This document shows positions 19,324 through 25,257 of a stretch of 43,522 nucleotides of DNA, piece by piece. The position numbers and the translations under genes are program-made. The notes under the pieces were generated by a model. It worked only from the letters and a program-made list of their open reading frames with translations, searched no databases and had not been told where the DNA came from. Where the stretch lies: assembly GCA_016784305.1 (NCBI GenBank), contig JADHUY010000002.1:1-43522 (forward strand). Reading direction: 5' to 3'. Each line of letters opens with the position of its first letter. The first letter of the stretch is position 1. The DNA is from Parcubacteria group bacterium (GTDB lineage: Bacteria; Patescibacteriota; Minisyncoccia; Phycocordibacterales; JABMNX01).

Positions 19324-19341
19324 TCGGGGCGCCGGGAATCG
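19324..19341. repeat. 18-bp exact duplicate of the tRNA-Pro 3' end (TCGGGGCGCCGGGAATCG)
   Basis: Identical to 19466-19483 within tRNA-Pro. Confidence 0.75.
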
Positions 19342-19465
19342 GCGTCAGGTCACTAGGCGCTTCGCGCTAAGTGCCTCCTGCCCGGACTCGGCGCTTCACC
19401 CTTCGGCGCGCCTCCGTCTTTCGATTCCCGACACGCCCTCAAGCACCTTGCTTCGCAAGTTACTT

Positions 19466-19536
19466 TCGGGGCGCCGGGAATCGAACCCGGGCCGCACGGT
19501 CCCAAACCGTGAACACTACCATTATGCTACGCCCCG
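19466..19536 (-). tRNA. tRNA-Pro (anticodon TGG)
   Basis: Reverse strand CGGGGCGTAGCATAATGGTAGTGTTCACGGTTTGGGACCGTGCGGCCCGGGTTCGATTCCCGGCGCCCCGA; CACGG-TTTGGGA-CCGTG anticodon arm. CCA not encoded. Confidence 0.93.
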
Positions 19537-19564
19537 TATAACCACAATATACTACCATGTTTTC

Positions 19565-19605
19565 TAAAAGACATGTAAAGGACAAGTAGAATAATCTAAA
19601 GGACA
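19565..19605 (+). repeat. TAAAGGACA motif cluster (19576-19584, 19597-19605; degenerate TAAAAGACA at 19565)
   Basis: Read directly; GACATGTAAAGGACA 15-mer shared with 24392-24406. Confidence 0.6.
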
Positions 19606-19985
19606 TTTTCTACAATCCTGCACTTTGCCTGCTTTCTTGCAATATCTAGGAACACTGCCACAACGTCTATACACCAATCCACGTCCTCATCAATCCCCTT
19701 TTCCAACATATATGTATCTGCCACTCTGGCTATTTTCTCAAGCTTTTTAGGATGAACCTTTTCTTCTGGCCTATAATCCGTTTCACGTGAAATATTGACT
19801 AAATTTTCACGTGTAACAGCCTTTACCTCTACGAAGTGTATACAATTCCCTTTTTGGGCAATTATATCTATTTCTCCCCATTTCTTAGTATAATTCCTGT
19901 CAATTATAGAAAGCCCCCGTTTCACGAGAAACTTACATGCCACATCTTCACCAATATCCCCTATTTCTTTAGTGTTTTTATTCAC
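19596..19985 (-). CDS. yraN: YraN/UPF0102 family endonuclease-like protein
   Basis: GDIGEDVACKFLVKRGLSIIDRNYTKKWGEIDIIAQKGNCIHFVEVKA. Confidence 0.93.
   Translation of the reverse strand: MNKNTKEIGDIGEDVACKFLVKRGLSIIDRNYTKKWGEIDIIAQKGNCIHFVEVKAVTRENLVNISRETDYRPEEKVHPKKLEKIARVADTYMLEKGIDEDVDWCIDVVAVFLDIARKQAKCRIVENVL
19779..19794. promoter_or_regulatory. parS-like site CGTTTCACGTGAAATA
   Basis: 14/16 match to parS TGTTTCACGTGAAACA. Confidence 0.6.
19803..19818. promoter_or_regulatory. parS-like site ATTTTCACGTGTAACA
   Basis: 13/16 match to parS TGTTTCACGTGAAACA. Confidence 0.45.
19918..19933. promoter_or_regulatory. parS-like site CGTTTCACGAGAAACT
   Basis: 13/16 match to parS. Confidence 0.4.
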
Positions 19986-20599
19986 TTTTCACGTGAAACT
20001 TGCTTTCTTAGCATTATTTCGAGCCAATCTACCTCATGAACAGTATTCCTACTATCTATAACCTTATAGCTATTTCCAACTATCTCTCTTATGTCATCAG
20101 CGGTGTATAAGTAAAAATAACGCTCCCCTATAGCATCCTCTTTGAGAACTTCACCATATTTCCCATATTTCAAGCAAAGAAAGATTAGACCGTCGTCACT
20201 TAGCCATTCATGTGCTTTTTTAAGTAAAATTTTATTTTCATCTTTGGTTGTATGAAGAAATGTCGCAAGTCCAAAAATTATATCGAATGAATTAGACTTG
20301 AAATCTAGTTCACGAATATCGGCAATACGAAAATCCGCCTCAGGCAAGCGCTTTCTTGCTATATTAATCATTTCCTTAGACGCATCAATACCAACATAAG
20401 ATCCGGCTCTTTTTAGTATCGTTTGAGCATCACGACCTCCCCCAACACCAAGCTCTAAACAGCGTGGCTTCTTTATATTGATAAAATCAAGGGCTCTGTT
20501 AACATTCTTCTCCCAATAAGAGGCCCCTTTGTCAAATTTATCAACATAGTGCTTAGCATCTTTGTTATAAGTTGCTACTGTTTGTGCATTCTTGTCCAT
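19982..20599 (-). CDS. Class I SAM-dependent methyltransferase
   Basis: CLELGVGGGRDAQTILKRAGSYVGIDASKEMINIARKRLPEADFRIADIRELDFKSNSFDIIFGLATFLH. Confidence 0.9.
   Translation of the reverse strand: MDKNAQTVATYNKDAKHYVDKFDKGASYWEKNVNRALDFINIKKPRCLELGVGGGRDAQTILKRAGSYVGIDASKEMINIARKRLPEADFRIADIRELDFKSNSFDIIFGLATFLHTTKDENKILLKKAHEWLSDDGLIFLCLKYGKYGEVLKEDAIGERYFYLYTADDIREIVGNSYKVIDSRNTVHEVDWLEIMLRKQVSREK
19985..20000. promoter_or_regulatory. parS-like site CTTTTCACGTGAAACT
   Basis: 13/16 match to parS; spans the methyltransferase stop and yraN start. Confidence 0.5.
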
Positions 20600-20610
20600 C
20601 TTACTTAAAA

Positions 20611-20626
20611 AGTGTCACGTGAAACA
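20611..20626. promoter_or_regulatory. parS-like site AGTGTCACGTGAAACA
   Basis: 14/16 match to parS; upstream of methyltransferase. Confidence 0.55.
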
Positions 20627-20717
20627 TTTATAGGACATTTTTGGTCGTTTTTAGGTAAAAGGACGTCTTTTATCCCCCTAATCCCCATAGTTTTCCCCAA
20701 CTTTGTGGAAAAATGAC

Positions 20718-20733
20718 CGTTTCAAGTGAAACT
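20718..20733. promoter_or_regulatory. parS-like site CGTTTCAAGTGAAACT
   Basis: 13/16 match to parS. Confidence 0.4.
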
Positions 20734-20759
20734 TTGTCCTTTTTGTCCTTTAATTTTGC

Positions 20760-20780
20760 GACCCAATCAGTGATTGGGTC
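20760..20780. repeat. Hairpin GACCCAATC-AGT-GATTGGGTC
   Basis: 9-bp perfect stem, 3-nt loop, next to two TTTGTCCTTT repeats. Confidence 0.65.
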
Positions 20781-20877
20781 ACAAAATATGGCTTATTCCC
20801 GTGCATTTAAGTATCTCATATATATACCGATTATGCACATGATAAAAAGTTGAACTGACGTGATATACTTGTTAAGT

Positions 20878-21567
20878 ATGCGAGACGATAAAAACTCTGC
20901 AGAAAAAATGCGCTCTAATGGTAGTAGTTACAAGGAAATATCACGAAAACTACGAATACCCATAAGCACTCTATCCACTTGGTTCAGTGATGAAAGTTGG
21001 TCTAAACAAGTTAAGAATAGGCTAACATTACAGGCGAACAAAGAGAACCGCGTTAAAATGCGTGGACTTAATAAAATTCGTGGAATAGCCCTTGAAGAGG
21101 CGTATAAAACAGCCAGTTTAGAAGCGGAGGCTGAATTTGAAGAACTTAAATACCACCCTTTATTCGTTTCTGGAATAATGCTGTATTGGGGAGAAGGTGA
21201 TAAGGTGACTAAATACGCGGTTAGGCTAGTAAACACAGACTATAAACTAGTAAAAGTATATGTGACCTTTTTAAAAGAAGTATGTAAAATTCCAGCCACA
21301 AAAATTAAATCCTCGTTGCTCTTGTATCCTGATTTGGAAAACGATGTTTGTCTTGCTTTTTGGTCATCAAATATTGACGTGGCCAGAGAGAATTTTACTA
21401 AAAGTACCGTAATTGAGGGCAGACATAAAAGTAGGAGGGTGACATATGGGATTTGCACTGTAACGGTTTCTAGCACATACTTCAAGGTCAAAATGCTTAG
21501 ATGGATGGAATTGATGCCTGCAGAACTGTTAAGAAAAGGGTATTATTATCCAGAAATCAAATCGTAA
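20878..21567 (+). CDS. HTH + LAGLIDADG-like domain protein (copy A), directly upstream of tRNA-Gly(GCC)
   Basis: N-terminal HTH (MRSNGSSYKEISRKLRIPISTLSTWF), central PLFVSGIMLYWGEGDK resembling a LAGLIDADG helix ending in EG; similar architecture to 21761..22441. Confidence 0.65.
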   Translation: MRDDKNSAEKMRSNGSSYKEISRKLRIPISTLSTWFSDESWSKQVKNRLTLQANKENRVKMRGLNKIRGIALEEAYKTASLEAEAEFEELKYHPLFVSGIMLYWGEGDKVTKYAVRLVNTDYKLVKVYVTFLKEVCKIPATKIKSSLLLYPDLENDVCLAFWSSNIDVARENFTKSTVIEGRHKSRRVTYGICTVTVSSTYFKVKMLRWMELMPAELLRKGYYYPEIKS

Positions 21568-21568
21568 A

Positions 21569-21639
21569 GCGGGTATAGTTTAGTGGTAGAACAGTTGCTT
21601 GCCAAGCAACAAATCCGGGTTCGATTCCCGGTATCCGCA
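21569..21639 (+). tRNA. tRNA-Gly (anticodon GCC)
   Basis: GCGGGTATAGTTTAGTGGTAGAACAGTTGCTTGCCAAGCAACAAATCCGGGTTCGATTCCCGGTATCCGCA; GTTGC-TTGCCAA-GCAAC. CCA not encoded. Confidence 0.93.
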
Positions 21640-21671
21640 CAAATTAGCTTTGGCTTAAGAGAAACTATGTT

Positions 21672-21747
21672 TGGTGCCCCCGCCAGGACTCGAACCTGGA
21701 ACAAATGCTTCGAAGGCATTCATGATATCCATTTCACCACAGGGGCA
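21672..21747 (-). tRNA. tRNA-Arg (anticodon TCG)
   Basis: Reverse strand TGCCCCTGTGGTGAAATGGATATCATGAATGCCTTCGAAGCATTTGTTCCAGGTTCGAGTCCTGGCGGGGGCACCA; AATGC-CTTCGAA-GCATT; CCA encoded. Confidence 0.92.
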
Positions 21748-21760
21748 TTAATGTTCTAGT

Positions 21761-22441
21761 CTACCCGTTGTGCTTATAATGTTCAACGAGTAGGTTTGAC
21801 CACATAATAGTCTTTCTGCGCAAGTTAGTACTCTTAGGAAGCTCTAGTCGCAAGCATCCTTTGTAATTTGGTCTTTTCTTTATTAGCAATCCTGTCGGTT
21901 TGTAGATTGTCTTTCTGAAATTCCTCTCTGGAACACTCAATTCTCTAGCCCAATACTTCTCCCAATTTTCATGTGCATATGGTCTGTGCATATACAACCG
22001 CGCAAAAACACTGTCCTTTTCAATTCCAAAGAATCTTTTTATCCAAAGCAACATCAGAACAACCATTTGAGGGTCAGAATTTGAAAACTGAAACATGTCT
22101 GACCGTTTTGCCCCCTCTGCCCAATAAAGTGCGATGCCAACTTGAAATAAAGGATCTTTTACAAATCGCTTAAATTCAGTTTTCGCTTCCTTAAATAACT
22201 CCGCCTCGCGATTTAAGCGACGCGCGCGGTTTGCGGTTGCGGCTTTAATCCTGCCACGAGAAATATTCGCATCTCGTCTTGAACGCAAATATCGCTTTTC
22301 TGACCAAGTTAAAGGCAAATCTTTAAGCCAGCTGGACAGTGTACTTTTTGAAACAGCAACTTCTTTGAGAATCTCGTTATAGCTAAGACCTTTTTTGCGT
22401 AGCCTTACAGCCGCATTTCGTTCGCGAACTTTAGTTTTCAT
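21761..22441 (-). CDS. HTH + LAGLIDADG-like domain protein (copy B), directly upstream of tRNA-Arg(TCG)
   Basis: HTH AAVRLRKKGLSYNEILKEVAVSKSTLSSWLKDLP; PLFQVGIALYWAEGAKR; same architecture as copy A. Confidence 0.65.
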   Translation of the reverse strand: MKTKVRERNAAVRLRKKGLSYNEILKEVAVSKSTLSSWLKDLPLTWSEKRYLRSRRDANISRGRIKAATANRARRLNREAELFKEAKTEFKRFVKDPLFQVGIALYWAEGAKRSDMFQFSNSDPQMVVLMLLWIKRFFGIEKDSVFARLYMHRPYAHENWEKYWARELSVPERNFRKTIYKPTGLLIKKRPNYKGCLRLELPKSTNLRRKTIMWSNLLVEHYKHNG

Positions 22442-22504
22442 AGCACATACCAGTATAACACAGTTCACATGTTCATATGTAGAGAAAAGGGTTAGAATAT
22501 TGTC

Positions 22505-23983
22505 ATGGCAAAAATTCCAGCAAGCAAAATTCCAGATGAAGTAAGGGCGGTATCGGAGACCATTGAGTCTGCTGGTTTTGAGGTGTATCTGGTGGGGGGG
22601 TGCGTGCGAGATTTGCTTCTTGAGAAAACTCCAAAGGACTGGGACATGACAACAAGTGCAAAGCCAGAAGAGATAGAGAAGCTTTTTGAAGATACTTTTT
22701 ACGAAAATGATTTTGGAACAGTCGGCATAGTAAACAAAGACACGCCAGAGGAGTCGGTACGAGTAATAGAAGTTACACCGTACAGACTTGAGTCAGAATA
22801 TTCAAATGCTAGGCACCCAGATAAAGTAGAGTTTTCAAAGAATCTAGAAGACGACCTTAAACGTCGCGACTTTACCATTAACGCAATGGCGTACAACCTA
22901 AAGAAAGGCGAGTTGGTAGACCTATACAAAGGTGAGGAGGATCTGAAAAGAGGGAGCCTCGTAGCCGTGGGGGACGCTGAAGAGCGCTTCTCTGAAGATG
23001 CTCTTCGCATGCTTCGCGCAGTGCGCCTTTCCGCGCAACTCTCTTTTACAATTGACCCAGATACAATGGGAGCCATCACAAAGCACATTGATTTACTTGC
23101 AAAGATTTCCAAAGAGCGCATTCGTGATGAACTCATTCGCACCATCATGACTACTAAACCAATTGAAGCATTCTTCTTAATGCAGAGACTTGGCATGCTT
23201 CCGTTTGTAGCACCAGACCTTGAGCGAGGAATTGGCGTTGAGCAAAACCAGGCGCACTCATTTGACGTGTTTGAACATTTGCTTCGCACCATGCAACACG
23301 GGGCCGACAAAGGCTGGTCTTTTGATATTAGAATCGCCGGGCTTTACCACGACATCTCAAAGCCTGAAACAAGGCGCTGGGGTAAAGAAAAAAACGATTG
23401 GACATTCCACGGCCATGAGGTAGTAGGCGCGCGTGTTGCCAAAAAGGCATTTGAAGAATTGCGCCTTCCTAAAAAGCAGGTGGAAAAACTCACAAAGCTT
23501 GTTCGCTGGCATATGTTCTTTTCTGACCCAGAGAAAATTACACTTTCAGCTGCAAGGCGAATGATACGAAACGTGGGAGAAGAGAATATTTGGGATTTAC
23601 TTAACCTTCGCATTTGCGACAGGATCGGTTCAGGACGACCAAAAGAGCAGCCATTTAGATTTAGGAAATATAAGTCAATGATAGAAGAGGCACTTCGCGA
23701 TCCTATATCAGTTGGTATGTTAAAAATTACAGGGGATAGAATTATGGAAATTACCAAGGAAAAACCAAGTAAAAAAATAGGCTTTGTCCTCCATGCTCTT
23801 CTTGAGGAAGTGCTTGATGACCCTAAATTAAATACAGAAGAATATCTAGAAAAGCGCGCAATAGAGCTCTTTAAGCTTCCTGAAAAAGAGCTACTAGAGC
23901 TAGGGGAAAAAGGAAAAGAGCGCCAAAAGGCAGAAGAGGAAGGGGCTGTGGAAGAGCTACGCAAAAAGTATTGGGTCTCATAG
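22505..23983 (+). CDS. cca: CCA tRNA nucleotidyltransferase / poly(A) polymerase family, with HD domain
   Basis: VYLVGGCVRDLLLEKTPKDWDMTTSA, RRDFTINAMAYNLKKGELVDLYKGEEDL, EDALRMLRAVRLSAQLSF, HD GLYHDISKPETRR. Confidence 0.95.
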   Translation: MAKIPASKIPDEVRAVSETIESAGFEVYLVGGCVRDLLLEKTPKDWDMTTSAKPEEIEKLFEDTFYENDFGTVGIVNKDTPEESVRVIEVTPYRLESEYSNARHPDKVEFSKNLEDDLKRRDFTINAMAYNLKKGELVDLYKGEEDLKRGSLVAVGDAEERFSEDALRMLRAVRLSAQLSFTIDPDTMGAITKHIDLLAKISKERIRDELIRTIMTTKPIEAFFLMQRLGMLPFVAPDLERGIGVEQNQAHSFDVFEHLLRTMQHGADKGWSFDIRIAGLYHDISKPETRRWGKEKNDWTFHGHEVVGARVAKKAFEELRLPKKQVEKLTKLVRWHMFFSDPEKITLSAARRMIRNVGEENIWDLLNLRICDRIGSGRPKEQPFRFRKYKSMIEEALRDPISVGMLKITGDRIMEITKEKPSKKIGFVLHALLEEVLDDPKLNTEEYLEKRAIELFKLPEKELLELGEKGKERQKAEEEGAVEELRKKYWVS

Positions 23984-24028
23984 CCCTACACTCCATTAAG
24001 TAACCGAAGATAGGATAAAGAATAATGC

Positions 24029-24073
24029 AAAAATAGGAATAACTATACGACCGTATAGTTATTCCTATTTTGT
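24029..24073. terminator. Terminator-like hairpin downstream of cca
   Basis: AAATAGGAATAACTATAC-GACC-GTATAGTTATTCCTATTTT. Confidence 0.7.
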
Positions 24074-24386
24074 CCTAACGTCAGCACTTGAGATTGAAAT
24101 GAAAATATACAAAAAGCCAATATAAAATACAAAAGAGCCGGCTAATCACAACGTCGACCGAGGTGGAGAAAAACATCCCCGACGACATCACAACTAAACG
24201 GCCCTATGATTGCTTCAATTATCTGCTTCGTACTTCTGCATGACACACAATACCTTGTTTAACAAAAATGTTTTAAAAATGTGGAAATGTGTATTGTCGA
24301 TCCAGCTACTTAGCGATTACTAAAGCTGAGCACTCGTACAACTAAGGTGCTATGACGAACTGCTCTGTACATAATATTATTCTCTT

Positions 24387-24433
24387 TAAAGGACATGTAA
24401 AGGACACTCTGTGGATAAGTAATGTCCTTTACA
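24387..24433. promoter_or_regulatory. Origin-like element: consensus DnaA box TGTGGATAA (24410-24418) inside an 11-bp inverted repeat TGTAAAGGACA/TGTCCTTTACA, plus an extra TAAAGGACA
   Basis: Read directly: TAAAGGACATGTAAAGGACACTCTGTGGATAAGTAATGTCCTTTACA. Confidence 0.55.
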
Positions 24434-24439
24434 AATCCT

Positions 24440-24470
24440 CAATATATGGGTTTCGTAAACCCATATATTG
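24440..24470. terminator. 14-bp stem hairpin CAATATATGGGTTT-CGT-AAACCCATATATTG
   Basis: Read directly; downstream of xth (minus), next to the DnaA-box element. Confidence 0.6.
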
Positions 24471-24480
24471 GTGAGCTTTG

Positions 24481-25257
24481 TTATCTTAATTCTATACCGA
24501 CAGGGCAGTGGTCGGAGCCGTATACGTCGTTTAAAATAAAGACATCTTTGACTCTGGGCATAGCAGACTGGCTTGCGAAGAAGTAGTCTATACGCCAGCC
24601 AACATTCCTATCTCTTGCTTTAGTCTTCATGTCCCAGTATGAATAAGCGCCAACTTTATTGGGATTAAAATGCCGATATGTATCAACGTAGCCGTGTCGA
24701 ATCACCTCGTCTAGCCATTCACGCTCTTCAGGTAAAAAGCCGGTATTTTTTTCATTTTCTTTTGGGCGAGCTAAATCTATTTCTTCATGCGCAGTATTTA
24801 CATCCCCACAAAAAATAACTGGTCCCACACCCTCCTTTGAAAGAGCGTCGGCGTACTCTAAAAATAAATCATAAAAATCTAATTTATACTTCAAGCGCTC
24901 CTCCCCGCCACCTCCATTTGGGAAGTACACACAAAGAAGTATAAAATCTTTGAAATATGCGGTAATGAGACGCCCTTCTTGGTTAAATTCTTCTTTATTC
25001 ATGCCATAAATCACCCTTTCTGGCTCTATTTTGCTGTAAATTGCAGTTCCGCTATAGCCTTTGCGAGTTTTAGATGAGGAAAAATATGAAAAATAACCCT
25101 TTAATTCACGCACTTCATCTGGTAGTTGCTCGGGCTCTGCTTTTGTCTCTTGAAGGCAAAAGATGTCTGCGTCTAATTTTAGAAATTCATCCCAATTGCC
25201 CTTTCTATGAGCTGCCCTTAAACCGTTTACATTCCAAGATAGTATTTTCATTCTCAT
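24481..25257 (-). CDS. xth: Exodeoxyribonuclease III (AP endonuclease)
   Basis: MKILSWNVNGLRAAHRKGNWDEFLKLDADIFCLQETKA, FCGDVNTAHEEIDLARP, WRIDYFFAS, SDHCPVGIEL. Confidence 0.97.
   Translation of the reverse strand: MRMKILSWNVNGLRAAHRKGNWDEFLKLDADIFCLQETKAEPEQLPDEVRELKGYFSYFSSSKTRKGYSGTAIYSKIEPERVIYGMNKEEFNQEGRLITAYFKDFILLCVYFPNGGGGEERLKYKLDFYDLFLEYADALSKEGVGPVIFCGDVNTAHEEIDLARPKENEKNTGFLPEEREWLDEVIRHGYVDTYRHFNPNKVGAYSYWDMKTKARDRNVGWRIDYFFASQSAMPRVKDVFILNDVYGSDHCPVGIELR

Follow-up and report, generated by a model that had tools for sequence, protein, structure and literature searches.

A conserved element of a DnaA box and repeated motif sites beside cca in Patescibacteria: a candidate regulated promoter for a non-coding RNA near the origin

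How the Patescibacteria (CPR), most of which are uncultured, control replication and the cell cycle is essentially undescribed in the searchable literature, and no description of Parcubacteria, CPR or Patescibacteria origins was found in open-access literature. What, then, is the role of a DnaA box framed by perfect inverted repeats in a gap between two genes of such a bacterium? The gap (23984-24480) lies in a stretch of 43,522 nucleotides, here called the window, which is the entire contig C27 of an assembly of 563 kb in 34 contigs. It separates two convergent genes, cca (ending at 23983) and an exonuclease-III-type gene (ending at 24481). A preliminary description had taken the element at 24387-24470 for a replication-initiation or origin-control site, with a factor binding repeats on both sides of DnaA.

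The letters, coordinates and repeats quoted for 24387-24470 proved exact when re-read in the window sequence (Table 1). Copies of the 9-bp motif TAAAGGACA (TGTCCTTTA on the minus strand) indeed flank the DnaA box on both sides, an arrangement conserved in relatives; 24423-24433 is a perfect 11-bp inverted repeat of 24396-24406, and the box is the sole exact TTATCCACA in the 43.5-kb window. The gap is free of open reading frames, as had been reported. The 14-bp-stem hairpin is present as quoted, but it is missing in the closest relative (L020, whose cca is 86% identical) and hence lies outside the conserved element. Motif copies at 19565-19605 and 20735-20752 had been missed.

Table 1. Coordinates of the features discussed, as positions in the window.
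Feature	Position	Strand	Remarks
Motif TAAAGGACA, two copies	24387-24395 and 24398-24406		Read directly in the window
Motif copy 1, TGTCCTTTACA	24396-24406	-	Contains the -35 hexamer TTTACA
Motif copy 2, TGTCCTTTA	24387-24395	-	Within the -35/-10 spacer
Motif copy 3, inverted	24423-24433		Plus strand reads TGTCCTTTACA, minus strand TGTAAAGGACA; upstream of DnaA box
DnaA box TTATCCACA (plus strand, TGTGGATAA)	24410-24418	-	Just before the -35 on the minus strand; putative DnaA-binding site
-35 hexamer TTTACA	24396-24401	-	Independent promoter scan
-10 hexamer TAATAT	24374-24379	-	Promoter scan; 16 bp from TTTACA
Predicted structured non-coding RNA, ~240 nt	24130-24366	-	Fold, terminator, no conserved ORF; approximate ends
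Intrinsic terminator hairpin of predicted RNA	24137-24206	-	GGGCCG...GGCTC, then TTTTGTATTTT
Hairpin, 14-bp stem, CGT loop	24440-24453/24457-24470	.	Begins 6 nt after 24433
Perfect hairpin, T-rich flank on both sides	24030-24071	.	Probable cca terminator
cca, tRNA nucleotidyltransferase	22505-23983	+	Conserved neighbour
Exonuclease-III-type endonuclease	24481-25257	-	Neighbour on the other side
Second element: CGTCTTTTA, then tandem DnaA-like boxes (TCCCCCTAATCCCCATAGTTTTCCCCA)	20664-20699	+	26-27 bp geometry as in 25 relatives
Further motif copies, TGTCCTTTTTGTCCTTTA on plus strand	20735-20752	-	Motif scan
parS-like cluster	19781-20731	.	Contains the genome's two perfect TTTCACGTGAAA sites, plus 4 of its 7 sites with one mismatch
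TAAAAGACATGTAAAGGACA...TAAAGGACA	19565-19605	+	Directly upstream of tRNA-Pro (minus strand, 19466-19536)

Genome-wide counting and comparison with relatives, both proposed with that description, bore out the co-location. The 563 kb hold 13 exact copies of TAAAGGACA, six of them within 19576-24431 of the window, and four of TGTAAAGGACA, three of these in the window; of the remaining copies of TAAAGGACA, two stand in tandem where contig C21 begins and one lies inside a candidate regulator gene on contig C16. Relatives were found via cca (80 loci, mostly named Kaiser-, Adler- or Nomurabacteria, or plain Patescibacteria). The composite of DnaA box and TAAAGGACA adjoins cca in 69 of 81 loci. Exact 9-mers number 345 in the cca loci of the 80 relatives, against 6.9 expected from shuffles, and a strict DnaA-box/motif composite is present in 37 of these 80, against none in 20 shuffles, confirming that the observation is real and far above chance. 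The consensus of the composite, in the promoter sense, is TTATCCACA-n4-TGTCCTTTACA-n-TGTCCTTTA-naaGnn-TAttAT, with an inverted TAAAGGACA usually preceding the DnaA box. The box carries one mismatch in many relatives, which counts against the explanation preferred below.

An independent promoter scan found, on the minus strand, a -35 hexamer inside motif copy 1 and a -10 hexamer beyond motif copy 2, their spacing falling within the 16-18 bp of a sigma-70-type promoter. This geometry is shared: TAnnnT lies 16 bp (46 elements) or 17 bp (11 elements) from TTTACA in 57 of the 69, and is rare at other spacings, the elements having been picked by DnaA box and motif alone, with no -10 criterion. Furthermore, the conserved DnaA box stands beside the core promoter, upstream of the -35, as it does in a DnaA-regulated promoter. 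Judged by its letters, the element carries a sigma-70-type promoter directed along the minus strand.

No conserved ORF was found downstream of this promoter. The predicted transcript of the window (~24366-24130) has a fold z-score of -4.3, and an intrinsic-terminator hairpin lies 174-386 nt downstream of the promoter in 63 of 65 cases. In clade A, compensatory changes were seen in 10 of 15 consensus pairs, spanning the terminator stem and one hairpin. The module points towards cca at 56 loci and away from it at 13, and its presence in both orientations suggests that the promoter and RNA region act as one unit. A known RNA family was considered and dropped, the Rfam 15 covariance models giving no credible match in the gap at the gathering or a relaxed threshold, and only tRNAs in 10 relatives. 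Using nhmmer, homology of the RNA was detectable only within clades A/D, B and C, and not between these clades and the window's own group; the notion of one RNA family thus rests on position, promoter and terminator. An anti-Shine-Dalgarno CUCC loop in the terminator was also set aside, occurring in 19 of 63 against 14 expected, which is not significant.

The inverted repeats in an intergenic gap, together with the opposite orientation of the module in 13 loci, might recall transposon ends, a MITE or another mobile element, or else a chance inverted repeat between terminators. Such an origin is highly improbable, however, given that the module keeps its chromosomal position beside cca in many families, is present in few copies per genome and conserves its promoter geometry; chance is likewise disfavoured by the conserved position and the shuffles.

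Is the element nevertheless a replication origin? The bacterial oriC is found in the dnaA-dnaN region, with DnaA boxes and DnaA-trios. An origin-type layout of this kind exists here between dnaA and dnaN and is near the element in the chromosome: six relatives have dnaA at a distance of 16-37 kb, and in this genome it is carried by a separate contig, C33. The spacers read (G000:C33:3690-3915, that is L002 of this genome; L257-L261; L263) contain several DnaA-like boxes and, in most relatives read, a terminal TAATAA/TAGTAG DnaA-trio-like repeat before dnaN; that of this genome has weak boxes only. The element itself differs, with one exact box (24410), no three relaxed boxes within 120 bp (a test in which the dnaA-dnaN spacers also reach just two) and no DnaA-trio or unwinding element seen by eye in the gap. 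GC skew, another of the checks proposed, gave a divided answer: it flips at dnaA in G006, G010 and G011, whereas the change lies closer to cca in G008, is ambiguous in G007, where either end would fit, and gives no information in G009.

As read from these sequences, the order probably has its oriC in the dnaA-dnaN spacer, in agreement with the use of dnaA as an origin marker in Patescibacteria (PMC12102498), and the element at 24387-24470 is probably not oriC itself. An origin at cca, suggested by the skew change and the parS cluster, was entertained and then dropped once dnaA had been located and the dnaN spacer read. A chromosomal origin or direct initiation site at the element, as first described, would fit the conserved DnaA box, the adjoining parS cluster, the phased DnaA-like boxes of the second element at 20664 and, in several relatives, a change of skew no more than 40 kb away, which in G008 is nearer to cca than to dnaA. 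We regard it as quite unlikely, since the element has a single box and bears a promoter with a predicted terminated transcript instead, the clustered boxes and trio-like repeats lie in the dnaA-dnaN spacer, and the skew flips at dnaA in the three genomes named. Hence the earlier claim survives in part: the motif behaves like a protein-binding site, is co-conserved with the DnaA box and lies at an origin-proximal, parS-rich locus, but replication initiation at 24387-24470 is not supported.

In the relatives, parS sites number 137 in 941 kb of cca loci and 0 in 618 kb of other sampled stretches. The window has the clustered TTYCACGTGRAA sites of a ParB/parS domain, and a ParB gene is present in the genome (G000:C15). 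The clustering is a property of the region and not of the repeat, TAAAGGACA being no parS sequence. The cca locus is origin-proximal and, by its site content, a parS-rich partition domain, and the map of the order would place this domain beside cca, tens of kb from the likely oriC in the dnaA-dnaN spacer. Two 235-aa proteins of the window (20860-21567 and 21761-22468) flank a tRNA-Gly/tRNA-Arg pair; the latter protein matches a homeodomain-like HTH model and the former has no Pfam match.

Upstream of cca, the second element (TGTCCTTTA followed at a fixed 26-27 bp by phased DnaA-like boxes) occurs at 26 loci, against 0.05 expected. In E. coli, datA, DARS1 and DARS2 are DnaA-control loci outside oriC. 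What the elements here share with them is shortness, a position outside the likely oriC and DnaA boxes set at a constant distance from the putative site of an accessory protein; they differ in having a promoter, a predicted RNA and a new accessory motif. A DnaA-titrating or -resetting locus, with the TAAAGGACA factor as accessory and the transcript incidental, would account for the presence of DnaA boxes at two places around cca, not in the likely oriC but within tens of kb of it, and for their fixed geometry to a second protein's putative site. The several spaced boxes of datA and DARS are seen at 20664, but the element at 24387-24470 has one, and neither the terminators nor the constancy of the 16-17 bp between the promoter hexamers would be explained; this alternative is unlikely.

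The other recurrent motif cluster genome-wide is one gene, encoding a predicted winged-helix protein. It adjoins an FtsK-like ORF in the five genomes whose neighbourhood was read (FtsK identity being Pfam-confirmed for G006, and judged by first residues and position in the other four). In these five genomes the product is 236-270 aa long; its N-terminal part is modelled as helical and its C-terminal part as a winged helix, the two being joined by a disordered linker. Foldseek placed winged-helix proteins and four-helix bundles of the S23 type nearest, with no hit reaching an E-value under 0.001. Of the 148 genomes of the order, 130 encode a detected family member, this one included (G000:C16:8538-9323), and matches outside the order are few and weak. 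Thirty loci of the gene with short flanks contain 76 exact motifs, against 0.54 expected. Within the gene, 23 motifs lie in one reading frame and 21 in another, encoding the unrelated peptides IKD and KGH/KGQ, and 15 lie upstream, which argues for selection on the DNA word itself. Strict co-occurrence of motif clusters and gene did not hold up cleanly, the agreement being partial: six of 12 genomes of the order without the detected protein keep motif pairs within 100 bp, which missing contigs or divergence could explain, and G013 has the protein and no close motif pair.

From sequence and structure model, the winged-helix protein beside ftsK is most likely the factor acting on TAAAGGACA. The promoter and RNA might be read correctly and the motif be bound by some other protein, the ftsK-adjacent gene being a mere target. 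Motif enrichment marks the gene as a target and not its product as the binder, and the six genomes that retain motif pairs point the same way. Nonetheless, autoregulation would suit the dense sites in the gene's own promoter and coding region, a DNA-binding winged helix is predicted for the product, and the family hardly extends beyond the order; we consider another binder somewhat unlikely.

The reading that we prefer, with a probability of roughly 0.62 as a whole, is that the element is the promoter of a non-coding RNA gene near the origin, regulated by DnaA and a winged-helix factor. RNA polymerase would read the minus strand from a start near 24367, producing a structured RNA that ends at the intrinsic terminator near 24130. 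The factor would occupy one TGTCCTTTA/TAAAGGACA copy across the -35, another in the spacer and the inverted copy upstream, with DnaA on the box between them. With both proteins on the promoter, output could follow the DnaA state and the factor level. Binding at the -35 and within the spacer typifies a repressor; the motif copies at both places suggest repression by the factor, tuned by DnaA. The winged-helix protein may autoregulate through the same sites in its own gene, and the module would operate within the parS-rich partition domain, alongside the second DnaA-box/TGTCCTTTA element at 20664.

Such an arrangement has a counterpart in Caulobacter crescentus, where, at Cori and CtrA-controlled promoters, a second regulator's repeated sites alternate with a DnaA box over a promoter in the origin region. 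Both systems place a DnaA box among repeated motif sites over a promoter, and in both the gene of the regulator, here a candidate, is itself a target. However, the element here is probably not at oriC, and its predicted transcript is a terminated non-coding RNA. CtrA is an OmpR-type response regulator, whereas the candidate, in which no receiver domain was found, is predicted to be a four-helix-bundle and winged-helix protein.

No description of the motif, the element or the RNA was found in open-access literature, the papers listed as matching the motif being unrelated. For the whole order, a large one of tiny uncultured bacteria, there is now a defined motif of 9 bp, together with two conserved elements linked to DnaA, a predicted RNA gene that is unclassified and a candidate regulator family. 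A motif shared by the RNA promoter and the ftsK-adjacent gene points to an undescribed cell-cycle control circuit. In a more tentative extension, which we hold to be possible at best, an order-specific cell-cycle regulator encoded beside ftsK would read TAAAGGACA at the partition domain and in its own gene and, with DnaA, drive the origin-proximal RNA; if true, initiation, segregation and division would be coupled by one dedicated regulator in minimal-genome bacteria.

The motif was also observed elsewhere. TAAAGGACA occurs at fixed places inside the cca coding region in many relatives (e.g. L026:6375 and 6399). Tandem TAAAGGACATCTAAAGGACA lies beside TTTATCCCCA (L003:36-55, G000:C21; L126:2490-2510), upstream of a gene with an N-terminal helix-turn-helix-like stretch, as read in G005. 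Contig C21 of this genome ends at the tandem. G116, two stretches of which are N, has a tandem motif at 736 kb that does not coincide with its skew minimum. A tandem motif also lies in the tRNA-Pro promoter region of the window (19466-19605), with a similar cluster before tRNA-Pro in G004 (L011), and partial repeats of the tRNA-Pro 3' end (GGGGCGCCGGGAATCG) stand beside the intact gene at 19325-19480.
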